Below are positions 915 to 32,222 of a stretch of DNA of 32,222 nucleotides, in pieces. Position 1 is the stretch's first letter. Each line of letters starts with the position of its first letter. This DNA comes from Geobacteraceae bacterium. Lineage in GTDB: Bacteria > Desulfobacterota > Desulfuromonadia > Geobacterales > Geobacteraceae. The stretch is from assembly GCA_028683595.1 (NCBI GenBank), contig JAQUHM010000004.1:1-32222 (forward strand), given 5' to 3'. The notes beneath the pieces were generated by a model. That model had not been told where the DNA came from and did not search any database. It saw only the letters and a list, made by a program, of their open reading frames with translations. The translations under genes were made by a program, and so were the position numbers.

Positions 915-3314
915 TTAGAAAACCTGCTCGGTGCGGGAGATGATATCGTCCTGCAGCGACTTGTCGAGGGCCGTAAAGAACGCACTGTAGCCCGCCACAC
1001 GCACCACCAGGCTCTGATAATCGTCCGGCTTCTTCTGGGCTTCGAGCAGAGTGTTGCGATCTATCACGTTGTACTGCACATGGAACCCACCGTTTTTGAA
1101 ATAGGTTTCGGTAATTGCAATAAGGTTGCGCAAACCCTCCTCACCCTTTACGGCATTGGGATGGAATTTCTGGTTGAGAAGGGTACCGTTGGAAGTGACT
1201 TCATGGTCAAGCTTGGCCACAGAGTTAACCGTTGCGGTCGGACCCGAGATATCGAAGCCGCCGATGGGGGAAACGCCGTCGGCCAGGGGAGTTCCTTTTT
1301 TGCGGCCGTCCGGAGTCGCTCCGACAACACAGCCTAAAGGCACATTGGCGGATGCCGGATAGAGACCGGGCTGGAACTGGCCGCCACGCGGGTTACGGTA
1401 CTTGTTGACTTCGCGGCAGTAGATGTTGGCCGACTCGACGGCAATTTCATCTGCGTAGTCATCATCGTTGCCGTACTTGGGAGCACGGTTGATAAGCATC
1501 TGGCGGATTTCTTCAGCTCCTTCGAAGTCCTTGTCAAGGATCTCCTTGAGTTCCGACAGGCTAATTGCTTTATCGTCGAAACAGAGCTTCTTGATGGCAG
1601 TCAGGGAATCCCCGGCGTTGGCTACGCCAACCCCCTGCGGGCCGCTGAAGTTGTAGATGGCGCCGCCTTCCTGGAGCGACTTGCCGCGACCGATGCAGTC
1701 TTCGACCAGACTGGAAAGGAAAGGCAAGGGTACATTTTGACCGTGAGCCAGATCGACCATATTATCAGCGTGGCACATTAGGCCAACGAAATATTCCATC
1801 TGCTTGGTGTAGGCAGCCATGACGTCGTCGAAGGTCTGCATCTCGGTTATCACACCGGTCTGCGGACCTACCTGGATGCCGGTGCGCGGGTCATAGCCGT
1901 TATTGAGGACCAGCTCGACGACTTTGGCCATGTTGAAGAAGGCAGCATCGTGCCAGCCTTCGGTCTTGCCGCCCACCTGGGGTTCGACGCAACCGATGAT
2001 GCCGTAGTCGCGGGCGTCTTCCAGGGTTAAGCCACGGGACAGCAAGGCCGGAATGATGGTGCGGTCGCTGAAGTAGGCAGGCACGCCCAGGCCCATGCGG
2101 CTGACCTCGGCGGATTTCATATAGAGCACGTCAGGAGTCCCTTCATGGATACGGATCGACAGGGAGGGGGCGTAGAGCTTGGTGTTGGCCGCTGCCTGCA
2201 GCAACATCAGGGACAGTTCGTTGGTAGCGTCCTTGCCTTCGCGGTCCTGGCCGCCGACGATGATGTTCATGAACATCGGGTAACCGGCAAAAGCCATGGT
2301 TGAAGTTTCGTCGCGCACCTTGTTCAGTCCATTTAGTTTGAGCCACATCAGATCGAGCAGTTCCTGGGCTTTTTCAGGCGGTATGGAGCCTTTGCTGGCT
2401 TCGTAGAAGGGATAGCAGTACTGGTCGAAGCGCATCGGGGATATGGAGTGGCCGTTGGATTCCAGCTGGATGACCAGGTGGATAAACCAGAAAGATTGTA
2501 CCGCTTCCGGGAAGGTTTCCGCCGGTTCGGCCGGAACCTTGCGGCAGATTCGTGCGATTTCCAGCAGTTCGGCCTTGCGGGCGGCATCTTCTTCGACTGC
2601 GGCGAGGCGCTCGGCTTCATCAGCATAGCGGTTGGCGAAGGCGATTACTGCTTTGTTGGCGATGATAGTCGATTCCAGAAAGTGCAGGGACTTCATCTGG
2701 TGCGCATCGGCATAATCGAATTTCTCCTTGGCTTTTTCCGCTTCGGCAATGACGCTGTTCAGACCTTCGCGCATGACCTTGCCGTAGTTGGCCGAAATGT
2801 GGCCGACGCCGTTGAAGTAGTAGTTGCCAACGGTGTAGACGACTGCGTTCTGGGCGTCGAGGGCTTCCGGTTTCATCAAAGCGGTAGCGATCTCTTGGTT
2901 GGTCTTGCCTTTCCAGTAGGGGAAAACATCTTTACGCAGGGTCTGCTTGACATCTTCGCTGATCAGAAAGACGTCGGCCGAGCGCTTTGCAAGGCAGTCG
3001 AGTTCTGCTTCCAGCCACTCGCAGGAAAATTCGGGATACACGGGGGCAGAGCGGGGCATGCTGCTCTGATTGCCGACGATCAGTTCATCGTCGTCGATGA
3101 AGATTGACATTCCCATGAGGATTTTTTCAAGCGCCTTGGCACGACGAGTACTCATGGGAAGACCTTCGGTTTCCTTGTAAGATTCGGTGATGAGCTTGGC
3201 CCGTTCGGCGCAGATTTCCGGAGTAGTGGCCACAAATCTGGCCTTGATTTTCTCGATCCGTTCGCTGGGACCGAAGGTAGCAACGGATGGATCTAAACTC
3301 AGTTTGCGTGACAT
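915..3314 (-). CDS. dhaB1: Glycyl radical enzyme, B12-independent glycerol/1,2-propanediol dehydratase type
   Basis: Gly-radical motif RVAGYSAFF (G775); GCVEP with C442/E444; H172 in GHISANYG; H289-S290 in NGHSISP; D456. These match the C. butyricum glycerol dehydratase active-site set (H164, H281, S282, C433, E435, D447, G763) with a near-constant offset. RBS TTAGGAGGAA upstream of ATG. Confidence 0.88.
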   Translation of the reverse strand: MSRKLSLDPSVATFGPSERIEKIKARFVATTPEICAERAKLITESYKETEGLPMSTRRAKALEKILMGMSIFIDDDELIVGNQSSMPRSAPVYPEFSCEWLEAELDCLAKRSADVFLISEDVKQTLRKDVFPYWKGKTNQEIATALMKPEALDAQNAVVYTVGNYYFNGVGHISANYGKVMREGLNSVIAEAEKAKEKFDYADAHQMKSLHFLESTIIANKAVIAFANRYADEAERLAAVEEDAARKAELLEIARICRKVPAEPAETFPEAVQSFWFIHLVIQLESNGHSISPMRFDQYCYPFYEASKGSIPPEKAQELLDLMWLKLNGLNKVRDETSTMAFAGYPMFMNIIVGGQDREGKDATNELSLMLLQAAANTKLYAPSLSIRIHEGTPDVLYMKSAEVSRMGLGVPAYFSDRTIIPALLSRGLTLEDARDYGIIGCVEPQVGGKTEGWHDAAFFNMAKVVELVLNNGYDPRTGIQVGPQTGVITEMQTFDDVMAAYTKQMEYFVGLMCHADNMVDLAHGQNVPLPFLSSLVEDCIGRGKSLQEGGAIYNFSGPQGVGVANAGDSLTAIKKLCFDDKAISLSELKEILDKDFEGAEEIRQMLINRAPKYGNDDDYADEIAVESANIYCREVNKYRNPRGGQFQPGLYPASANVPLGCVVGATPDGRKKGTPLADGVSPIGGFDISGPTATVNSVAKLDHEVTSNGTLLNQKFHPNAVKGEEGLRNLIAITETYFKNGGFHVQYNVIDRNTLLEAQKKPDDYQSLVVRVAGYSAFFTALDKSLQDDIISRTEQVF

Positions 3315-3854
3315 GGTTTGTTCCTCCTAAATTTTTGTTGAGTTACGTGTGCGTTTCCGTCTACCACGATACAGACCGCCGGGTTTTATATATGAATCAG
3401 TGTGCAGGGCAACGGCTAGCCCCTTGCGATCTTTGCTCACTATTTGATAAAACCGTTCGCCAAGTTGAGAAGCAGGGCTCTCAGAGCAACGGCGCCTGTT
3501 GGTGGGTCCACATGACTGCTTCTACCGTTGTCCATGATTGTGCGGGCCATCAATCCCTGCAGCAGTCCTGCCAGACTGGAAATTTCTGTATTTCTCTGGA
3601 CCCTAACTGCAGGCCAAGAAGTCTCCCCGCTGCAATGCCCCAGGCACGACGAAAGCACCGGCAGCAGAGATGAACTCTTTAGCCAGCATGGGATCCAAAA
3701 TATTTTTCTCCTGCACCATAATAAAATTTTAACAGTGCTTCACCAATCGTAGACTACCTCTGCCGTTTACGAAGCGATTTTTTGCGCGCACTATACTTAT
3801 AATAAAGAAACCTGTTTGTAACAATCGCTAGAAGACGCCAATTCTTGTCCCCTT

Positions 3855-3881
3855 AAATAGTGATATTGGTCCTCACTATTT
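3855..3881. promoter_or_regulatory. Dyad AAATAGTG-N11-CACTATTT in the GRE/PocR-kinase divergent intergenic region
   Basis: Perfect 8-bp arms; TCACTATTT also occurs as a direct copy within 3436-3445. Confidence 0.4.
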
Positions 3882-4026
3882 CCGGAGAACATATTTCACT
3901 TTCTTGATGACATGGCTTATGCTATTAATAATTAAAGAGAAAATACGAAACGGGCAGGTTTTTGTTGCTGTACGGTGAGAAAGTTCTGCAAGACTTTCAT
4001 AGCAGCAGGAGGCGGAAGGAAGAGGA

Positions 4027-5688
4027 ATGGCTCGTAAGAAAATACAAATCCTTGATCTTATCGATAAAGAAATTCTCGAGGAAATCGTCCAGGATTTTAC
4101 TAAGGCGACGCAAGTGGCGTCGGTCCTGGTGGATTTGGACGGTCAGCCTATCACCCAGGAGCACAATTTCACCAGGTTCTGCAAAGAGTATTGCCGCTCG
4201 ACTCCGGAAGGACGCGCACGCTGTTATGCAAGTGACCGGTTCGGCGGTGAAGAAGGGAAGAAAACCGACAGGCCTTTTATTTATCAATGCTTGAATGCCG
4301 GACTTATGGACAGTGCCACACCAATTATCGTAGAAGGCTACCACGTGGCAACCCTGGTTATGGGACAGGCACTGACGAGGCCTCTTTCCATTGAAGAGGT
4401 TGTGGATAGGGCAAAGGAAATCGGCATACAGGATATCGGAGGGTATCTCCGTGCCCTACAAGAAATACCGGTGATGAGTTATGAAAGACTTCAGTCGGTG
4501 GTAAACCTCATGTGCACCATCGCAAAAACCATCAGTTCACTGGCAATTCAGAAATACCTGTCGCAGAAAGCCTATCAGAAAAACGTGCATAACATCATCA
4601 ACAGCGTTTCAGAGGCCATAATATCTACCGATACTACTGGAAACGTTACTTTGATCAACAAGGCGACGGCCACCATGTTGGGCCGTGACCCCCTGTCGAT
4701 CGTCGGACAACCGATCTTCGATCTTTTCGCCAATCCCGAGGCCTTTCGCGAATTTCTGGTTACGAGAAAGGATCCTGATAGTTACGACACTCCGCCGGTG
4801 TTTGATGTGCTTAAACCCAATGGCCAGATCTTTTATGCCCAGGCCTCCTGTCAGGATATTTATCTCACCAAGAAGCAAACGATGGGACTGGTAATCGTGT
4901 TGCGCGATGTAACGCAGGAAAAAGAAATCGAAAAGATGAAGGAAGATCTGATCGGCATGCTGACCCACGATATGGGCAATCCGATCCTCTCTATCCAGAG
5001 GGTGCTGGAATTGATGCTGGACGGCCATCTGGGTTCTCTCAACGAGAGGGGCAAGGATCTTGTTTCCCTGGCTGTGAACTCGACCCACAAATTGTCCGGG
5101 ATGTTAGCGAACTTTCTTGATATTTTTCTTGACGAAAGTACCGGCCTTACCCTCTACCTGGTCCCAGGGAATATGGACTCCACCCTTGTAGAAAGTATCC
5201 AGCAAGTCGGTTTCTCGGCAGACGACAAGAAAATCACCATTCACTTCCAACCAGGCAGTGCCGGGGTCTGCACGCTTGCCGACTGGAACCGTTTTCAGCG
5301 AACCTGCGTCAATCTGCTGGAAAACGCCATCCGCTTCAGCCCGGTGGGAAGTGAAATCTTTGTCAAGGCCAAGCAGAAACACAGCAAGAAACAGGGGGAT
5401 TTCATCCTGGTGACTATCGATGACCAAGGCAAGGGCATCGATCAGGATAAACAGACCGTTATTTTTGAGAAGTTTTATACCACCAGCGCCCAGGACGGCT
5501 ATGTACGACGCGGGGTGGGGTTGGGACTGACCTTCAGCAAGCTGGTCGTGGAAGCCCATGGTGGGGAAATCTGGGTGGAGTCGCCCTATCAGGACGACGC
5601 AGGGGCGGAGATAACGGGAGGGCGCTTCCGTTTCCGGCTTCCTGTGGAAGCGTCGGGCACCGGTAGTCCAGAGGAGGAAGGGCCATGA
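4027..5688 (+). CDS. Sensor histidine kinase with N-terminal PocR ligand-binding domain, PAS domain, HisKA and HATPase_c
   Basis: PocR-like FTRFCKEYCRSTPEGRARCYASDRFGGEEG...RPFIYQCLNAGLMDSATPIIVEGYHVATLVMGQ; PAS region; H-box MLTHDMGNPILS; G-box RRGVGLGLTFSKLVVEAHGGEIWVES. Confidence 0.9.
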   Translation: MARKKIQILDLIDKEILEEIVQDFTKATQVASVLVDLDGQPITQEHNFTRFCKEYCRSTPEGRARCYASDRFGGEEGKKTDRPFIYQCLNAGLMDSATPIIVEGYHVATLVMGQALTRPLSIEEVVDRAKEIGIQDIGGYLRALQEIPVMSYERLQSVVNLMCTIAKTISSLAIQKYLSQKAYQKNVHNIINSVSEAIISTDTTGNVTLINKATATMLGRDPLSIVGQPIFDLFANPEAFREFLVTRKDPDSYDTPPVFDVLKPNGQIFYAQASCQDIYLTKKQTMGLVIVLRDVTQEKEIEKMKEDLIGMLTHDMGNPILSIQRVLELMLDGHLGSLNERGKDLVSLAVNSTHKLSGMLANFLDIFLDESTGLTLYLVPGNMDSTLVESIQQVGFSADDKKITIHFQPGSAGVCTLADWNRFQRTCVNLLENAIRFSPVGSEIFVKAKQKHSKKQGDFILVTIDDQGKGIDQDKQTVIFEKFYTTSAQDGYVRRGVGLGLTFSKLVVEAHGGEIWVESPYQDDAGAEITGGRFRFRLPVEASGTGSPEEEGP

Positions 5689-6335
5689 ATGAAACACCTC
5701 CCATAACAGTTTTCATTGCGGACGACCATCCCATCCTGAGGATCGGCCTGAAACTCTATCTCGAATCGAAGCAGCACATTAAAATAGCGGGCGAAGCCGA
5801 AAACGGTTTTGACGCTGTCAATGCAATCACCAGTAATCCGCCGGATATCGTGCTTATGGATATTGACATGCCCGGTCTTTCGGGAATCGAAGCCATCCGT
5901 GTCTTACGAAAAACGCTGCCTGACCTGAAAATTATCGTACTTTCCACCTACTCGAAAAAAGAGTATGTTCAGGAAGCGATGCTCGAAGGGGCAAGCGGCT
6001 ATGTGGCCAAAAACACCAAAACCGATGAGCTGATCAAAATCATAGAAGACTTTGCCGAAGGGCGAGAGTGCAATTCGCCGTATCTTTTAAATCAGGCAGT
6101 AAAATGGCAAAAGGTGAAGGACGAAAACAGAGATGAATGTGAGCACTGCCTGACCAAAACGGAAGTCCGGGTTTTAAAAAATATCGCTCAAGGGAAAACT
6201 AACAGTGAAATTGCTGAGATAAATTTTGTCAGTATCGAAACTATCAAAACCCATGTGCAGAGGGTCTTCAAGAAACTCGGAGTCGGAAACCGTATGGAAG
6301 CCGTAGCCTTGGCGCGGGAAAAGCATATCATTTGA
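5685..6335 (+). CDS. NarL/LuxR-family response regulator (REC + HTH)
   Basis: REC DDHPILRIGL...VLMDIDMPG...VLSTYSKK; HTH LTKTEVRVLKNIAQGKTNSEIAEINFVSIETIKTHVQRVFKKLGVGNR; overlaps the kinase stop by 4 bp (ATGA). Confidence 0.95.
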   Translation: MNETPPITVFIADDHPILRIGLKLYLESKQHIKIAGEAENGFDAVNAITSNPPDIVLMDIDMPGLSGIEAIRVLRKTLPDLKIIVLSTYSKKEYVQEAMLEGASGYVAKNTKTDELIKIIEDFAEGRECNSPYLLNQAVKWQKVKDENRDECEHCLTKTEVRVLKNIAQGKTNSEIAEINFVSIETIKTHVQRVFKKLGVGNRMEAVALAREKHII

Positions 6336-6457
6336 CATTTTTAAAACATCTTTGAACAATTTTTGAACCGCAAAGAATGCCATGAAAGAGCTTCCTGTTT
6401 TGTAGCCGTTACGTCTTTGCGGAGAAAGTACCGTTTTGAGGAAACAAAAAAACCCTC

Positions 6458-6482
6458 CGCAACCACGCTCCGTGGGGTTGCG
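6458..6482 (-). terminator. Possible hairpin with minus-strand T-run
   Basis: cgcaaccacg-ctc-cgtggGGgttgcg, with aaaaaaa on the + strand at its left (T-run on - strand). Confidence 0.3.
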
Positions 6483-6510
6483 AAATACACCTAGCTGACA
6501 CCGGAGCATT

Positions 6511-8307
6511 ATGCATTTCGGCGGTATCTATGAAGACGAAATAGTCGGCAAAGCCTACGATCGAAAACTTCTGGGCAGGTTTCTCCGCTACCTGCGCCCC
6601 TACCGGTGGCTGGTTGTCTGGAGCCTGCTGCTGTTGCCCCTGATCGCAGCGGCTAAACTTGCCCAGCCCTGGCTCATCAAGATTGCCATCGACAGCCATA
6701 TCACCGTTGGCAAAATGGCAGGACTTCCCCTGCTGTCGTTCTGGTACTTTGCCCTTATCATTGCCGACGGACTCCTGACCTACCTGGAAATCTATCTCCT
6801 GCAGTACTTGGGACAAAAGGTCATGTTTGATCTCCGGATGGAGCTTTTCTCCCACATCCAGGGCCTTTCCTCGTCCTTGATGGACAGGACCCCCACCGGC
6901 AGCCTCGTGACACGGGTAACGAGCGATGTGGAGGTTCTTGGAGAGATGTTCACCGCCGGCATCATCTCCATTGTCGGCGACATCCTCGTGCTGGTGGGCA
7001 TTGTGGGTCTCATGCTGTGGATGAATCTGAAGCTTTCTCTGGTCACCTTCATCGTGCTGCCGATGCTCCTTTATATCGTCTTCACCTTTCGCCTCAGGAT
7101 GCGCAAATCCTTTCGGGAGGTGCGGGCCCGCCTGTCCAACCTCAACTCCTTTCTGGCCGAAAGTATCGGCGGCATGGCGGTGGTGCAACTCTTCAATCGT
7201 CAAAGAACCGAGCAAAAAGAATTCACCAGGCTCAACGCCTCTTACCGGGACGCAAACCTTCCGGTCATCACCTGGGACGCGGCACTTTTTGCCTCCGTGG
7301 AAGCCCTGTCATCGGTTGCAGTTGGCCTCATCATCTGGTACGGAGGAGGGGAAATCATCCGCGGCACCCTGACCTTCGGCGCCTTGGTTGCCTTCATCCA
7401 GTACATGGAAAAGTTTTTTTCGCCTATCCGTGATCTTTCCGCCAAATATTCTATCATGCAGGGAGCAATGGCCGCACTGGAGAGGATCTTCGGGCTGCTG
7501 GACGTGGAAAAAAAGGGAGAGAATGTTCAACGAAAAGAAGACCTGCCAGGTTTTCAAAATCTGGCAGGTCTGGATTCCGCCATTGAAACCATCGAATTTC
7601 GTGATGTCTGGTTTGCCTATAAAGACGAAGATTACGTGCTGAAAGGATTCAACCTCAAGATCCGGCGGGGAGAAAAGATCGCCCTGGTCGGTGAAACAGG
7701 CGGCGGAAAAACCACCGTTACCCGTCTTCTGTCCAGATTTTACGAGGTTAACCGGGGAAGCATTCTCATCAATGATTGTGAAATCCGGAAGATTCCGCTT
7801 CCCGAATTACGGGGGAGGATCGGCGTAGTTCTCCAGGAACCGTTCCTGTTCAGCGGCTCGCTGGAACACAATATAACCCTCGGAGATGAGGGCGCGCACC
7901 GAAGGATGGAAGAAGCCGCAGCAATGGTGGGAGCAGACCGCTTCATCTTACACCTCCCGAAAGGTTTCTCCGAGGAGGTACGGGAAAGGGGGGTGAATTT
8001 TTCGGTGGGCGAACGGCAGCTCATCTCCTTTGCCCGGGCGGTTGCCTTTGATCCGGAGGTCCTGGTGCTTGACGAAGCCACTTCCAGTGTCGACACGGCC
8101 AGCGAACGTCTGATCCAGGAAGGTCTGCAGGGTCTTCTGACAGGGCGAACCTCCCTGGTGGTTGCCCACCGGCTCTCAACGGTGCGGGACGCGGACCGGA
8201 TCGTGGTCATCCACAAGGGGGAAAAAGCGGAAGAGGGGAGTCATGATGAGTTGATGGCGCGCCAGGGGCTCTACTACCGTCTCTATCAGCTGCAGTTCAA
8301 AGACTGA
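6511..8307 (+). CDS. ABC exporter, fused TMD-NBD (MsbA/lipid or multidrug exporter family)
   Basis: Six-TM type N-terminus; Walker A GETGGGKTT; signature NFSVGERQ; Walker B VLVLDEATSSVD; H-loop VAHRLST. Confidence 0.93.
   Translation: MHFGGIYEDEIVGKAYDRKLLGRFLRYLRPYRWLVVWSLLLLPLIAAAKLAQPWLIKIAIDSHITVGKMAGLPLLSFWYFALIIADGLLTYLEIYLLQYLGQKVMFDLRMELFSHIQGLSSSLMDRTPTGSLVTRVTSDVEVLGEMFTAGIISIVGDILVLVGIVGLMLWMNLKLSLVTFIVLPMLLYIVFTFRLRMRKSFREVRARLSNLNSFLAESIGGMAVVQLFNRQRTEQKEFTRLNASYRDANLPVITWDAALFASVEALSSVAVGLIIWYGGGEIIRGTLTFGALVAFIQYMEKFFSPIRDLSAKYSIMQGAMAALERIFGLLDVEKKGENVQRKEDLPGFQNLAGLDSAIETIEFRDVWFAYKDEDYVLKGFNLKIRRGEKIALVGETGGGKTTVTRLLSRFYEVNRGSILINDCEIRKIPLPELRGRIGVVLQEPFLFSGSLEHNITLGDEGAHRRMEEAAAMVGADRFILHLPKGFSEEVRERGVNFSVGERQLISFARAVAFDPEVLVLDEATSSVDTASERLIQEGLQGLLTGRTSLVVAHRLSTVRDADRIVVIHKGEKAEEGSHDELMARQGLYYRLYQLQFKD
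7539..7571. repeat. Dispersed palindrome copy 2 (33 bp), inside the ABC exporter CDS
   Basis: agacctgccaggtttt-c-aaaatctggcaggtct, one arm mismatch; in-frame codons 344-354 read DLPGFQNLAGL. Confidence 0.9.
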
Positions 8308-8311
8308 CGGA

Positions 8312-8329
8312 TTCCCGTTATCACGGGAA
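8312..8329. terminator. Hairpin 1 in the convergent region (ttcccg ... cgggaa)
   Basis: Inverted repeat just after the ABC exporter stop. Confidence 0.45.
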
Positions 8330-8368
8330 AAGAGCGTGCCCGCACCTGTGCGGTGCTAACAAGCTCTT
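8330..8368. terminator. Hairpin 2 (aagagc ... gctctttt) in the convergent region
   Basis: Stem aagagc/gctctt followed by T-run on + strand; lies between convergent genes. Confidence 0.5.
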
Positions 8369-8444
8369 TTCATTGGCCATGGTTCTCGATCCCGAATAGG
8401 GACAGAAGAAATATCCACCGGAGTGAAGCTCCGCAGGAAAGCCA

Positions 8445-8792
8445 CTAGTTTTTGAATGCCTCGAATGCCTCAAGATAATTATGAAGCACCCGACTGCCCT
8501 CACCGTCGAATTCCAGAAATTCGATCCCGGCGCTGAAAGTCTTGTCATCCCGCTCTTCCGCATGCTTGACCAAACCCTTTAAGTCTACCAGGTCCTCTTC
8601 CAGACCGATCGTAATCAGCAGTACCTGGCCCGGTTCGAACTGGAGATGTGTTTCCAGCAGGATTCCTTTTTCGCTGATATTGAGAGTCCTTCCCATGGCG
8701 CGGGTTACTATCTCTCCCTTTTCATCAACGAGAACATAGTCGAGCAGATTCAGTGACTCCATCCGTACATAGCGTCGATCGCTGTTGCTCAT
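8445..8792 (-). CDS. PilZ-domain protein (putative c-di-GMP binding)
   Basis: RRYVRMESLNLLDY...GRTLNISEKGILLET...FSAGIEFLEF. Confidence 0.8.
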   Translation of the reverse strand: MSNSDRRYVRMESLNLLDYVLVDEKGEIVTRAMGRTLNISEKGILLETHLQFEPGQVLLITIGLEEDLVDLKGLVKHAEERDDKTFSAGIEFLEFDGEGSRVLHNYLEAFEAFKN

Positions 8793-8939
8793 CCTTTCCC
8801 CCTCTATGGTAAATCCGAAATATCCGGTTGAAAATGTCTATCGCTTGCAACAGATGGCATCCGAAATTTGTGAACTCTTGATGACGTACGAACATGACTC
8901 AAAAAAACATCAGTTTCATATACCACATTTTTTCCTGCC

Positions 8940-10919
8940 TCACCATATGTAATCCTTTGCAATTTCCCTTTTATCATTTCCGAAAAGGACATGGAACACC
9001 CGGAGCTTCTTCAGTTTCTGAGGCGACAGGGAGCCGAGGGGAATATAAACGATCTTCTTCCCGACCCGGGCCGCAATCTGTCTGAAACAGCTCCTGGGTG
9101 GGCGTGCCGCCACATAGACGACATGTTTTTCCCGTGAATAGTCCAATGCAGCCAACAGCAGTACTTCCGCTTTATCCCGGGCAAAGGAATAGTCGCTGTC
9201 CTGCCAGACATCAAACATTCGGCGGGGAGGGTAGGAGAGCAGGAATCCGCCGTATTCGCAGCGACAGATCCCCGGACCCACCACGTTGTCAGCCGGTTCG
9301 GTGCCGTAAAAAGCCATGTCCGACTCCTGATCGTGCTCACCGAGCCAGGTGGTCAGGTAGGGGAATTTCTTCCCTCCGCGGTCTTGGTCAAAGATCACGA
9401 CCAGGCTTCCTACTCCCCCCTGGACACGAAGATTTTCCCGCACATAGATCTTTCCCTGGTGGTGGTTGCGCAGGGTTTCCCGCATGTCGATGCCATCCAG
9501 CAGCGATGAAGAAAAGGCTTCGACGCGGCTCTGTTCCTCGGAGAGCTGCTTTGCACCCTTTTTTTTGAGAAAGCGGCCATAGTCTTCGATGATCAGATCT
9601 TCCGGTGGATACGAGCAGATGGAGGGGTTATCAAACCCTTCCAACCATTCGCCGGGCCGCTTTTCCCGCTTCCGCTTCAGAAACTGTAGGGGCGAGAGCC
9701 CCTTGCCCGGCTGCCGGGAACGGGGTCGAAAACGGATTCGCCTGCTGCCTCCGGCAATATCCTCGGGCCGGAGTCTGATGGTGGGCAGGTCCGAATCCAG
9801 CTTCTGCCACGGATAAAAGCTGGCAAGTCGGTAGAATGCATAGGCGAAATTGTCGTCAATGCAGCCGCGAGCCGCAGCCAGCATTTGAAAGAGATCGGGC
9901 AGAAGCCGGCCCATTACCAGCGCATAGTTGCGGGAAAAACGAAAAAAGGCCCGCTTCTGCCAGACATGAACAGGCTCTCCGGTTTCCTGCCGATAGTGCC
10001 GTGCCGCTTCCCGGAAAAGCCGGAAAACCACGCGCTGCCGATCCAGTCCTTCCCCGGCCCGCCCCACATGATGAGCGCTCCGCACCATCGCTTCGAAGAA
10101 AATCTCTTCCTCAGGCACCTCCCTTTTACCCCCTGCGATCAGTTCGAAAGCATTCCAGCTCTTCCTGAGGGAAGGACCTGCAACGGAAGGTTCCGGCGGA
10201 AGCGGACCCCGATGCAGCTCATAGAGGGAGGATAGGAAAGAATATTCCGCCAGTACCTCCCGGCACGACTCGGGATGAAGATTATAGAGGGAAATGCCCA
10301 ATCTTTTTACCCTTTCCAGCGGGGCCGCCTGGGAAAGATCGTAATACCCCTTCAGCCTCTCCAGGTGGGCCATGCCGCATACCAGGAGAATCCGGTTGAA
10401 ACGGGCCGACAACTGCTGGAGTCGGTAGGCCATACCTCTCTCACGGAGAAGATCTTCTCGTCCCGGCACAGACTTTCCGAAAACCTTCCGATATTCTCCG
10501 TAATAGGCGCTGAGTCCAATGCGCCGGACTGCATAGGAATCGGGAAATGGCTCCTCATGGCTGGGATAGCCTTCCACATCCACATCGATACAGTGGAGCG
10601 GGATATCCCGCTCTCCGGCCAGACGGGCCGCTTCCACAAGCGGATCGGCCGGCTCGATGAAGAGGAAGATTGTCTCGCCCCCGTCAGCTGGATGTCTCCC
10701 GGAGCTATCCAGCTCGTACCTGAGAACTGAGATTTCCGGCAGTCGTCGCACCGCTCGCAGAAAGTGAGCCTGGAGGGTAGGGGGAAGCTCGATGGCGATA
10801 CAGTCAGGTTGCAGCCGATTCACCGCTTGACGTACGAGCGTGGCAAATTCCATCGTGTAATGGAGAACCGGCAGCGCATGAACAGGGCCGAATTTTTCCA
10901 GGTAGAGTCTCTGGGGCAT
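8940..10919 (-). CDS. Uncharacterised ~660-aa protein; N-terminus possibly TraB/ChaN/DUF5682-like
   Basis: LYLEKFGPVHALPVLHYTMEFATLVRQAVNRLQPDCIAIELPPTL and LLVCGMAHLERLKGYY resemble the TraB/EreA/ChaN-superfamily pattern; the C-terminal half has no family I recognise. 16 bp downstream of the MoxR-like gene. Confidence 0.7.
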   Translation of the reverse strand: MPQRLYLEKFGPVHALPVLHYTMEFATLVRQAVNRLQPDCIAIELPPTLQAHFLRAVRRLPEISVLRYELDSSGRHPADGGETIFLFIEPADPLVEAARLAGERDIPLHCIDVDVEGYPSHEEPFPDSYAVRRIGLSAYYGEYRKVFGKSVPGREDLLRERGMAYRLQQLSARFNRILLVCGMAHLERLKGYYDLSQAAPLERVKRLGISLYNLHPESCREVLAEYSFLSSLYELHRGPLPPEPSVAGPSLRKSWNAFELIAGGKREVPEEEIFFEAMVRSAHHVGRAGEGLDRQRVVFRLFREAARHYRQETGEPVHVWQKRAFFRFSRNYALVMGRLLPDLFQMLAAARGCIDDNFAYAFYRLASFYPWQKLDSDLPTIRLRPEDIAGGSRRIRFRPRSRQPGKGLSPLQFLKRKREKRPGEWLEGFDNPSICSYPPEDLIIEDYGRFLKKKGAKQLSEEQSRVEAFSSSLLDGIDMRETLRNHHQGKIYVRENLRVQGGVGSLVVIFDQDRGGKKFPYLTTWLGEHDQESDMAFYGTEPADNVVGPGICRCEYGGFLLSYPPRRMFDVWQDSDYSFARDKAEVLLLAALDYSREKHVVYVAARPPRSCFRQIAARVGKKIVYIPLGSLSPQKLKKLRVFHVLFGNDKREIAKDYIW

Positions 10920-10935
10920 GATTAATTCCGCGTTG

Positions 10936-11754
10936 TCAGGTTAGATAGTGAAGAGCCTCATCTCCCAGGATTCTCATCACCGCCAGAGGGAATATCTCCT
11001 CCCGCTCTCCACCCGACGCCTTGAGCATCTTCAAGGCATAGCGGGCAATATTGATGCCGTCGCGAACCGAATAGAGCTCGTCAGCGGCATGGGCACGCTG
11101 AAGGAAATTCACCACATAGGCCAGGATGGCATCATCGGCAAAGGGAAGGTTTTCCTTCAGGATGAGCAGTTCTTCGTCAGCTTCGGGAAAGTCGATATAG
11201 ATCTGCGGCTGGAGTCGGGAATGGATGTATTCGGGAATTTCGAAGGTGGATGAGTCCTCATTCATGGTAACTACGATACGAAAGTCCCGGTTAGCCCGAA
11301 TCGTCAGACCGGTAATAATGGATTCCACGTAGCGCCGGTCATCCAAAAGGGGTGCCAGGGATGCCCAGGCTTTTTCGCTCATCCGGTTCCCCTCGTCGAG
11401 GATCAGCACGCCACCCTTGAGCATGGCAGTGACCAGGGATGAGGCAGCGTACTGGATCCGGTTATCCGGCCCAACCACCGGGGTCACGATCAGGTCCTCA
11501 GGCCGGGTATCCATGGTAGCCTGGAAAAGGAATACCTCCCGACCGAGCTTTTTCGCAGCCGCATAGGCAAGGGTGGTCTTACCGACACCAGGCTTGCCGA
11601 TCAGTCGCGGATTAAAGGGAATATCCTTGTCATCGATCACCATCCAGGCAGCCAGCAGTTGCTGGAGGATCTCTTCCGGACCGATCCATTTCAGCGGCAA
11701 CTCCACCGCATGGGCAAGGGAAAGAGAAATGTCGTCAATCGTTACACGTTCCAT
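10936..11754 (-). CDS. MoxR-like AAA+ ATPase
   Basis: Walker A GKPGVGKTT; Walker B GGVLILDEGNRM; sensor 1 FRIVVTMNED; SRLQPQIYIDFP; SD GGAGG 5' of ATG. Confidence 0.9.
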   Translation of the reverse strand: MERVTIDDISLSLAHAVELPLKWIGPEEILQQLLAAWMVIDDKDIPFNPRLIGKPGVGKTTLAYAAAKKLGREVFLFQATMDTRPEDLIVTPVVGPDNRIQYAASSLVTAMLKGGVLILDEGNRMSEKAWASLAPLLDDRRYVESIITGLTIRANRDFRIVVTMNEDSSTFEIPEYIHSRLQPQIYIDFPEADEELLILKENLPFADDAILAYVVNFLQRAHAADELYSVRDGINIARYALKMLKASGGEREEIFPLAVMRILGDEALHYLT

Positions 11755-12136: not shown

Positions 12137-13039
12137 ATGGTCACCATTGACGATCTGAAGCGGCATTACCTTTTTTCCGATGAGGATACCGAGCTACTGA
12201 CCTCGTTTCTCCCTCATGCGGAAGGAAATAAAGTCAAATTGGCCGATGATCTGTACGATTATCTCCTCGGTATGCCGGAAACCGCCGTATTACTTCAGGA
12301 TGACGCCGTTTTACAGCGGCTGAAGAAAACCCATCAAACCTGGTTCATTGCCCTCTTTTCCGGAAAATTCGACAACCACTATCTGCGAACTCTAGAAAAA
12401 ATCGGTCTTGCCCATGTAAGGATCGGTCTGAACGCACACTTCGTTAACTGCGCCATGAATTTTGTCCGGCAAGCGGTGACGAACCTCATCCGGGACGCCT
12501 ATCCTGATAGAGAGATCCGCCGCAGGCTCACCGATGCCACCGAAAAGATCCTGGATATCAACCTGGATATCATGAGCGCCTCATACCTGGAAGAAGAGCT
12601 TAAAAAAGAGTTCGTCTCGCACCGTCTGGAGTCAAAGCTGATTCAGGCAACGGAGCGGTTCACCTACGGCCTGAACCTGATATTGGTCATGGCCCTGGCA
12701 GGAGTCTCTCTCTCCGTAGTTGCCCTGTTTGCCTGGGACCTCTTGCATATCTTCCGGGGTGACATTGAAAAGGGTATCCTGAGCGCGCTCGGAACACTGC
12801 TTATTCTCTGGATGATGATTGAACTGATGGGAAACGAGATCAAGAACCTGAAGGGGGGAAGGTTTAATATCCTGGTCTTTATCGGGGTCATCATGGTCGC
12901 CCTGATTAGGGAGATCCTCATCTCCACCCTGCGCCACGATGCCCTGGAAACCCAGGTCTTCCTGGCAGGAACCCTTCTGATCCTTGGAATTGTCTACTTC
13001 CTGGTAGCGAAAAGCCAACCGGAAGGGTTAGCACGCTGA
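12137..13039 (+). CDS. Protoglobin-domain heme sensor fused to PsiE-like C-terminal membrane domain
   Basis: Protoglobin/globin-coupled-sensor pattern with proximal-His motif LAHVRIGL; C-terminal half has about four hydrophobic segments resembling PsiE. Confidence 0.8.
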   Translation: MVTIDDLKRHYLFSDEDTELLTSFLPHAEGNKVKLADDLYDYLLGMPETAVLLQDDAVLQRLKKTHQTWFIALFSGKFDNHYLRTLEKIGLAHVRIGLNAHFVNCAMNFVRQAVTNLIRDAYPDREIRRRLTDATEKILDINLDIMSASYLEEELKKEFVSHRLESKLIQATERFTYGLNLILVMALAGVSLSVVALFAWDLLHIFRGDIEKGILSALGTLLILWMMIELMGNEIKNLKGGRFNILVFIGVIMVALIREILISTLRHDALETQVFLAGTLLILGIVYFLVAKSQPEGLAR

Positions 13040-27395: not shown

Positions 27396-29966
27396 CTACT
27401 CGCTGGCATCCGTTTCCGGTTCCGTATTTTCAGCCTCATCATCATCCAGAAAATCAGGCTCATCGCCCTCTTCTTTTTCTGCAAGCCGTGCAACAGCGAC
27501 AATCCTTTCAGTCTCTTCGGTGACCATGAGCCGAACCCCTTGGGTATTACGGCCAATCACCGAAAAGCCTGCCACCGGCATGCGGATGATCTTACCCTGA
27601 TCGGTAATCAGCATCAGGTCATTTTCGTCGGTGACTTGCTTGATGTCAACAACACAACCATTCCGTTCGGTGGTCTTGATGGTGATGATACCTTTGCCCC
27701 CGCGGCTTTGCAAGCGGTAATCGTCCAAGGGAGTACGCTTGCCGAACCCGTTTTCGGTAACCGTGAAGATAGTGGAGGAAACAGTATTTGGATTGATAAT
27801 CTCCATGCCGATCACCACATCGTCACCCACCAGGGTCATTCCCCTTACCCCACGGGAAACACGCCCCATCGGTCGGGCATCCTGCTCATGGAAACGGATG
27901 GATTTGCCGTGATGAGAAGCCAGCAGCACGTCCTGACGTCCATCGGTGATGGCAACCCCAATCAACCGGTCTTCCTCATCCAGGTTCACCGCAATAATTC
28001 CGCCAGTCCTGATGTTGGCGTAGGCCTTGATCGGGCTCTTCTTCACCACTCCGTGACGGGTTGCCATGATCAGGTTGCGGTCGTCGTCAAAGCACTTCAG
28101 CGAGAGGATGGCGGCGATCTTCTCTCCGGCTTGAAGATTCAGAAGGTTGACGATTGCCTTGCCACGGGTCGCCCTGCCTCCTTCGGGGATTTCGTATACC
28201 TTGAGAACATAGACGCGTCCCGTGTCGGTAAAGAACATCATGAAATCCTTGCTGGAGGCGACGAACAGGTGCTCGACAAAATCCTCATCCTTGGTCTTCA
28301 TGCCCGACTTACCCTTGCCGCCCCGGCGCTGTGCCCGATACATGGAGACAGCGGTCCGCTTGATGTAACCGGTATGGGAAACCGTGACCACCACGTCTTC
28401 CTCGACAATGGTATCCTCCAGAGAAATGTCAGCCGTCTGATCGATGATCTCGGTGCGCCGTTCATCGCCGAACTTCTCCTTCAGCTCTGTCAATTCACCG
28501 ACAATGATCTTCAGAATTTCCGCCTCTGAGCCGAGGATTTCCTTGAGCCTGGCTATGAACCTCAAAAGCTCTGTGTACTCCTGCAGGATTTTTTCCCGCT
28601 CCAGACCAGTCAGTCGCTGTAAACGCATTTCCAGGATTGCCTGGGCCTGCTTGTCCGAAAGGCTCATGCTCGAGCTGAATACTGAGTCAGGGATCCCCAG
28701 CTTGCGCAGGTAGTCAGGGTCAGAGAAATTGCCGGCCATAAGGCCGTTCTTTGCTTCCTCCGGGTTTTTAGAGGCACGTATCAGTTCAATCACTGCATCG
28801 AGCCAGTCGAGGGCAATCTTGAGGCCTTCCAGAATATGGGCACGTGCCTCAGCCTTTTTCAGTTCGAAGATGGTGCGGCGGGTTACAATTTCCCTGCGGT
28901 GATCGATAAAATGCACCATGGCATCCCGCAGGGTTAGAACCTTCGGCCTGCCACCGGCAATGGCCAGCATGTTGATGCCGAATGAGCACTGCATCTGGGT
29001 CTGCTTGTAGAGATGATTGAGGATTACCTGGGGGTTCTCATCACGTTTCAGGTCAATAACAATTCTCATCCCGTCACGGTCCGACTCGTCCCTGAGGTCT
29101 GCAATCCCCTCTAACTTCTTCTCCCGCACCAGCTCGGCAATTTTGATAACCAGGTTCGCCTTATTCACCTGATAGGGTATCTCGGTTACAATGATTGATT
29201 GCCGCTCGGTCTTTTTCTGGGTTTCTATAAATGCCCGTGCCCGCATCTGTACAATGCCGCGGCCGGTCTTGTAACCCGAAATAATGCCCTCGCGACCATA
29301 AATGAAACCGCCGGTGGGGAAGTCAGGACCGGGAACTATTTGAATCAACTCTTCGAAGGAGAGATGCGGATTGCCGATAAGGGCAATGATACCGTCTATT
29401 ACCTCCGAGAGATTGTGAGGGGGGATATTGGTGGCCATGCCGACCGCGATACCGGAGGAACCGTTTACCAGCAGGTTCGGGAACTTGGCCGGGAGCACCA
29501 GCGGCTCATGGAGGGAACCGTCGTAATTGGCTCCCGTTTCCACTGTCTCCTTATCCAGATCTTCCAGTAGTTCGTGGGCAAGCCTGGACATACGAATCTC
29601 TGTGTAACGCATGGCCGCGGGAGAATCGCCATCCACGGAGCCAAAGTTCCCCTGGCCATCCACCAGCGGATAGCGAAGTGAAAAACTCTGGGCCATACGG
29701 ACGATGGTATCGTAGGCAGCAGAATCGCCATGCGGGTGATATTTACCAATAACGTCACCGACAACACGGGCCGACTTCTTGTACGGCTTGTTCCAGTCGT
29801 TGCTCATGTCGTACATGGCATACAGACAGCGCCGGTGCACCGGCTTCAGGCCATCCCGCACGTCGGGGAGGGCTCGACCGATGATGACGCTCATAGCATA
29901 GTCCATGTACGAGCGTTTCATTTCGTCTTCGATGTTGACAGAGGTTTTGTTGATTGTTTCGAGCAT
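27396..29966 (-). CDS. gyrA: DNA gyrase subunit A
   Basis: [71 protein letters not shown]; GyrA box QRRGGKG. Confidence 0.98.
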
Positions 29967-30062
29967 TGCTACCTCATGTATCAAAGCTACAGGCTGGGAA
30001 CTGAAGGTGGGAATCTGAATAACTCCCCTTTTTCATGTACCTCATAACCTGTGCCGGTTTTT

Positions 30063-32222
<2,160 letters not shown>

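Follow-up and report, generated by a model that had tools for sequence, protein, structure and literature searches.

MoxR-type AAA+ ATPases are generally explained via partner proteins with a VWA domain, and such a VWA cofactor generally co-occurs with MoxR proteins (PMC3893208). The NorQ–NorD system works via a finger of the VWA protein that is inserted into the ATPase ring, and McrBC offers a precedent for finger-in-pore docking by a partner without a VWA domain (PMC13036017). MoxR-based conflict systems have additionally been proposed from genomics (PMC7159879). Given the general co-occurrence with a VWA cofactor (PMC3893208), the gene pair described here is unusual: it couples a MoxR-clade ATPase to a large protein (hereinafter BIG) with no VWA partner encoded nearby. 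A conserved pair of this kind suggests that there is a further way of coupling such an AAA+ ring to its client and offers a small two-protein system in which such coupling can be tested. The domain libraries and literature that we searched contain no prior description of the pair, and in that literature we found nothing on the function of DUF5682, yehLMPQ or a MoxR–TraB pair.

The gene pair, its neighbors and its distribution

The two genes lie on the reverse strand of a 32,222-nucleotide stretch of a Geobacteraceae genome (the window). The first codes for the 272-residue ATPase (10936..11754) and is followed after 16 bp (10920..10935) by the gene for the 659-residue BIG (8940..10919), with both open reading frames located where the original prediction had placed a MoxR-like ATPase and a 659-aa protein 16 bp after it. 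The short gap is compatible with a single transcript and translational coupling. In comparisons with close relatives, the Ka/Ks ratio is 0.03–0.05 for the ATPase, 0.02–0.08 for the C-terminal domain of BIG and 0.13 for its N-terminal domain; this strong purifying selection on both indicates real genes rather than chance ORFs.

A gene for a 115-aa PilZ-domain protein (8445–8792; E 2e-9) follows closely downstream of BIG on the reverse strand; it is not a conserved neighbor across clades. Divergent from the ATPase gene, a forward-strand gene (12137–13039) codes for a 300-aa protein in which a protoglobin domain (E 2e-27) and a PsiE membrane domain (E 6e-20) are fused, possibly a haem-based membrane sensor. 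The reverse strand of the window further encodes a 799-aa glycyl radical enzyme (915–3314; PFL-like E 2e-254, Gly_radical 1e-35) and features two adjoining genes (27396–32162) that were read by eye as the A and B subunits of DNA gyrase. Based on these putative gyrase genes, the pair may be located near the replication origin region.

We surveyed presence and absence within the phylum of the window using an even draw of 148 genomes. A profile search recovered BIG in 31 of these, with one additional TraB-only match (a plain TraB protein in G150, counted apart from the 31), and the ATPase (E <= 1e-30) is present in exactly the same 31 genomes, among them G185, the bearer of a diverged version of the pair (locus L125). 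The idea of a fixed two-gene unit is thus supported: the result that was to refute it, BIG homologues occurring broadly without a MoxR neighbor, did not appear. Among 58 relatives from the same order and nearer, both genes are present in 49, neither in six, and three are discordant: G010 has a 29-aa remnant of BIG and no ATPase, G011 (90% complete) has a full BIG plus a fragment but yielded no ATPase, and G024 (78% complete) has an ATPase gene with an internal TGA and no BIG. The co-occurrence is partly phylogenetic, and the joint absences within the order help in this regard. The ATPase–BIG distance correlation (mirror tree) is 0.94, a value expected from shared descent alone and, without a control, uninformative as evidence for pairing. 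Taken as a whole, the pairing of BIG with the ATPase is almost obligatory.

Of 87 loci that had been selected for holding both genes, 82 have them on the same strand with less than 400 nt in between. Genes may also intervene: in L031 (genome G007) a same-strand gene for a 1169-aa SNF2-type helicase (2406–5912) is situated between the ATPase and BIG, and in L037 a HAMP-GAF-HD sensor gene takes this position. In several genomes (e.g., G062, G066, G080 and G103) the pair members are on different contigs or far apart, suggesting that adjacency is not needed for their co-retention. No third gene, VWA and SWIM genes included, recurs beside the pair across clades, and beyond the ATPase the neighboring genes provide no recurrent hint as to a substrate or pathway. 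In seven Desulfobacterota-like loci (L065–L068, L070, L071 and L079) a small DUF1232-type protein is encoded about 350–1900 nt downstream of BIG, the version from L067 having a DnaJ domain; this clade-specific protein could possibly be an accessory chaperone link.

BIG is present in 51 of the 58 genomes from the same order and nearer, nearly always at full length and with 62–88% identity. A scan of genome contigs recovered full-length relatives, down to about 41–46% identity, from Geobacterales, other Desulfobacterota, Acidobacteriota and Chlamydiota (Protochlamydia, Parachlamydia and Waddliaceae), as well as from one Myxococcales and one Armatimonadetes MAG (labels that may be imperfect). There is no match in the phage collection, and the single plasmid match is from a Neochlamydia plasmid, where a gene annotated as 'AAA family ATPase' lies directly upstream. 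The pair is chromosomal, occurs in single copy and has been conserved vertically.

Domain architecture of BIG

The structural model of BIG (60-sequence alignment; mean pLDDT 82.9, pTM 0.70) has an N-terminal domain (residues ~1–240; 10200..10919, reverse strand) with the TraB/TIKI fold of the DUF5682 type, featuring conserved H20, E24, E44, D112, E160 and H185. This domain combines the fold with the H/E...E...H metal-site motifs that characterize the TraB/TIKI superfamily, these residues being lost in some homologues. In Pfam searches the window BIG itself has only a sub-threshold match to DUF5682 (PF18934; 15.1 vs 26 bits, E 0.0075, residues 144–191), with matches being seen for 37 of the 60 homologues (5.4e-10 at best). 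A search of the phylum of the window with PF18934 recovers, over the curated cut-off, BIG genes and nothing else; five homologues exceed this cut-off, matching the N-terminal ~80–90 positions. TraB_PrgY_gumN of Pfam matches weakly in seven of the 60 homologues, NCBIfam TIGR00261 (traB) matches 11 homologues, and neither NCBIfam nor PADLOC finds anything in the window BIG. The top structural matches, both in the PDB and among viral models, are TraB family proteins: the best PDB match, with an E of 0.03 and a probability of 0.91, is subunit 7w5z_E of Tetrahymena complex IV, and a viral-model TraB match has an E of 8e-5 and a probability of 1.0. Profile, Pfam and structural matches hence uphold the earlier reading of the N-terminus as TraB/EreA/ChaN-like and of the DUF5682 type.

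A profile–profile comparison (hhalign) of BIG with DUF5682, the latter profile comprising 12 proteins from E. coli and plasmids, gives a probability of 98.5 (E 3e-15), with the aligned region lying within the N-terminal half only. When compared domain by domain, the N-terminal domain aligns with an E of 8e-16, the helical middle (residues ~270–395; 9735..10112, reverse strand) is weakly collinear (E 0.011, probability 4) and the C-terminal domain scores an E of 0.2 (probability 0.3). Thus, the homology to DUF5682 does not extend over the full length of ~700 aa including the C-terminal half. In line with the original prediction, no VWA domain was detected in either protein: for BIG, Pfam detects none in 60 homologues, and none is among the best 50 structural matches listed for either the whole BIG model or the C-terminal domain, on which basis a VWA domain hidden in the C-terminal half was rejected.

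The C-terminal domain (residues 418–659; 8943..9668, reverse strand) is hyperconserved, with the motifs CSYPPED, DGIDxRET, WLGEHDQESDMAFY and VGPGIxRCEYGG. Its mean identity is 63% as compared to 44% and 47% for the N-terminal domain and the middle, respectively, over the same sequences, and roughly 60 of its positions are near-invariant, among them C435, D441, E445, D475, D478, T482, Y492, W525, E528, H529, E532, S533, D534, R553, W572 and H643. Folded alone (60 sequences) it yields a model with a pLDDT of 87.9 and a pTM of 0.82. Searches of Pfam, NCBIfam, PHROGs, PADLOC and the PDB returned no convincing relatives, the best PDB match of the model having an E of 0.48. A relationship to dCMP deaminase was considered and rejected as not significant (E 0.48, probability 0.35, 46–57 columns); a strand-PP-helix-strand element near residues 599–627 recalls a deaminase-like half fold, which we offer as a lead only. 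The original prediction of a C-terminus matching nothing recognized therefore holds, with its boundary being shifted from residues 360–400 to near 415–420. Within the phylum the domain is found in 49 of 297 genomes, normally once and in long, BIG-size frames except at contig ends. Thus, a strictly conserved domain has neither a Pfam entry nor a solved relative that we could find. This strict conservation, in single-copy genes of Geobacter relatives, Acidobacteria and environmental Chlamydiae, suggests that its activity likely matters to basic physiology.

The patterns of residue decay point to which part of BIG matters most. The window BIG retains H20, E44, E160 and H185 as an H-E-E-H set, and most homologues keep the metal-site residues intact, suggesting from the conserved positions that their N-terminal domains may be catalytic. 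However, in four Acidobacteria-type loci (L090, L091, L097 and L099) H20 is replaced by P, H185 by L and E160 by A; in L121–L123 H20 is replaced by P and H185 by F or Q, with E44 being lost; and in L124 H20 and H185 are replaced by D and S, respectively. In all these loci, at most one of the 14 positions checked in the C-terminal signature is substituted and the ATPase is still present. L125 displays the reverse pattern, with the TraB residues largely kept and the C-terminal signature largely gone. The survival of this signature where the TraB metal site has decayed suggests that the C-terminal domain is probably the functional and indispensable part of the protein.

The ATPase, rival explanations and a proposed two-component machine

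The ATPase matches Pfam AAA_5 at 1.2e-20 and displays a Walker A motif (GKPGVGKTT, ~53–61), a Walker B motif (VLILDEGNRM, ~116–125), a sensor-1 asparagine (N165), an Arg-finger-like R180 and an RDG in the sensor-2 region, all of which are kept across phyla in an alignment of 28 sequences. It hence has the AAA_5/AAA_3-type P-loop, Walker motifs, sensor 1 and Arg finger expected of the MoxR clade; PADLOC gives only weak generic AAA matches. Among single-domain proteins of solved structure, NorQ and CbbQ come closest to it (about 50 bits, E ~1e-12). In sequence comparisons the region DLIVTPV...IQYAASSLVTAM aligns through with the AAA domains of midasin. The very low E-value of midasin arises from adding the scores of as many as eight AAA repeats (about 1–34 bits each); per domain NorQ and CbbQ score higher, and midasin was rejected as the nearest relative. 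In a tree that took in YehL-type ATPases, RavA and other AAA+ proteins of the source genome, the ATPases of BIG loci, including L125, group in a single clade (99/99 support) that is separate from the YehL type, although the long branches make this placement unsure.

Could the pair nevertheless be a YehL–YehM derivative without a VWA domain, with the ATPase corresponding to YehL, BIG to a YehM with a replaced C-terminus, and the VWA protein being encoded elsewhere? The homology of the N-terminal domain, and possibly the middle, to DUF5682 is consistent with this, as is the position of DUF5682 proteins, which are likewise encoded immediately behind, or in the vicinity of, a MoxR-type ATPase, and three VWA genes are found elsewhere in the source genome, on contigs other than that of the pair. 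However, one of these codes for a chelatase-like protein, DUF5682 lacks the C-terminal domain of BIG, and no neighbor beyond the ATPase, VWA or SWIM included, is conserved. Moreover, the window ATPase matches YehL in BLASTP with an E of only 0.027 and is separated from it in the tree within the limits set by the long branches, and we regard this derivation as unlikely. By analogy to AAA+ proteases, BIG might instead act mainly as a TraB/TIKI-type metal-dependent peptidase or esterase to which the ATPase would feed unfolded substrate. TIKI proteins are reported metalloproteases (PMC12329661), and most homologues retain the metal-site-type residues H20, E44 and H185, which lie within HxxxE, VELP and GxxH-like motifs; nevertheless, the pair and the C-terminal domain persist in the Acidobacteria group and L121–L124 where these residues are lost, and selection is strongest on the C-terminal domain and the ATPase rather than on the N-terminal domain, leaving this option quite improbable.

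A role in phage defense, with the ATPase serving as a sensor or threshold switch and BIG as the effector, as in the MoxR-vWA ternary conflict systems (PMC7159879), is suggested by L125 (positions 1383–11688 of this locus, from genome G185). This conflict-type island comprises RyR-AAA, ThsB_TIR, the diverged pair (a 782-aa BIG-like protein with its own AAA+), a TPR protein and an LDcluster4/TIR_2 protein, the pair thus adjoining ThsB_TIR, RyR-AAA, SLOG/LDcluster4 and TIR_2 genes. Yet L125 represents one genome in 395 from the phylum and has lost most of the C-terminal signature; such a diverged branch may have been co-opted into a mobile defense system. In the main family, single copy, retention as a core gene across the order, a slowly evolving C-terminal domain unlike a diversifying effector, near absence from mobile elements and the lack of recurrent defense neighbors argue against mobile defense, and PADLOC matches neither the window BIG nor any of 60 homologues. 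We hence consider a defense function very doubtful. Of the proposed undescribed ATPase–effector pair, the fixed and previously undescribed unit stands; the effector part, if taken as conflict or defense, does not sit well with a single-copy gene present in 51 of 58 relatives.

We favor, as a reasonably probable reading, that the two genes encode an AAA+ machine of two dedicated components, which would serve core physiology and not mobile phage defense. Across several bacterial phyla either both genes are retained or both are missing, which points to such an unstudied machine as opposed to a defense gadget. The ATPase would form a hexameric ring that docks BIG and, in the manner of NorQ on the NorD finger and of McrB on its partner McrC, probably grips a segment of BIG in its central pore; ATP hydrolysis would then remodel or activate either BIG itself or a substrate that BIG holds. 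The C-terminal domain would be the functional center, probably as an enzyme or else as a module that binds a highly conserved target, with the TraB domain potentially contributing regulation, binding or auxiliary hydrolysis. The core role might lie in protein or cofactor maturation or in stress, outside of mobile phage defense. More speculatively, and only as a tentative proposal, the pair might represent a widespread VWA-independent MoxR-type machine, in which the C-terminal domain of the partner is an enzyme with a new fold that strictly requires activation by the AAA+ ring, and the TraB domain is a dispensable regulatory part.

Comparison with known systems

The E. coli YehL–YehM–YehP–YehQ cluster, representing the DUF5682 systems, resembles the pair in having a MoxR-clade ATPase gene followed directly by one for a large protein with the same TraB/TIKI-type N-terminal domain. 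However, YehM lacks the C-terminal domain of BIG, the ATPases of the pair do not group with the YehL type, and the known DUF5682 systems usually add VWA, SWIM, DUF5691 or DUF4132 proteins, whereas the BIG pair has no conserved third gene. NorQ–NorD and CbbQ–CbbO, of the CGN subfamily of MoxR ATPases, likewise combine a small AAA+ protein with one dedicated large partner; this partner is a VWA protein, in contrast to BIG with no detectable VWA domain. The likeness to McrB–McrC is confined to the proposed logic of an AAA+ ring docked by a non-VWA partner (PMC13036017); BIG has no recognized nuclease domain. The MoxR-vWA ternary conflict systems (PMC7159879) also feature a MoxR-clade ATPase with a large partner, but the pair has no vWA, VMAP or variable effectors and consists of core, slowly evolving genes. 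Finally, the TraB/PrgY/TIKI/EreA superfamily shares its fold and motif type with the N-terminal domain of BIG, to which BIG adds a helical middle, an unrelated hyperconserved C-terminal domain and a companion ATPase.
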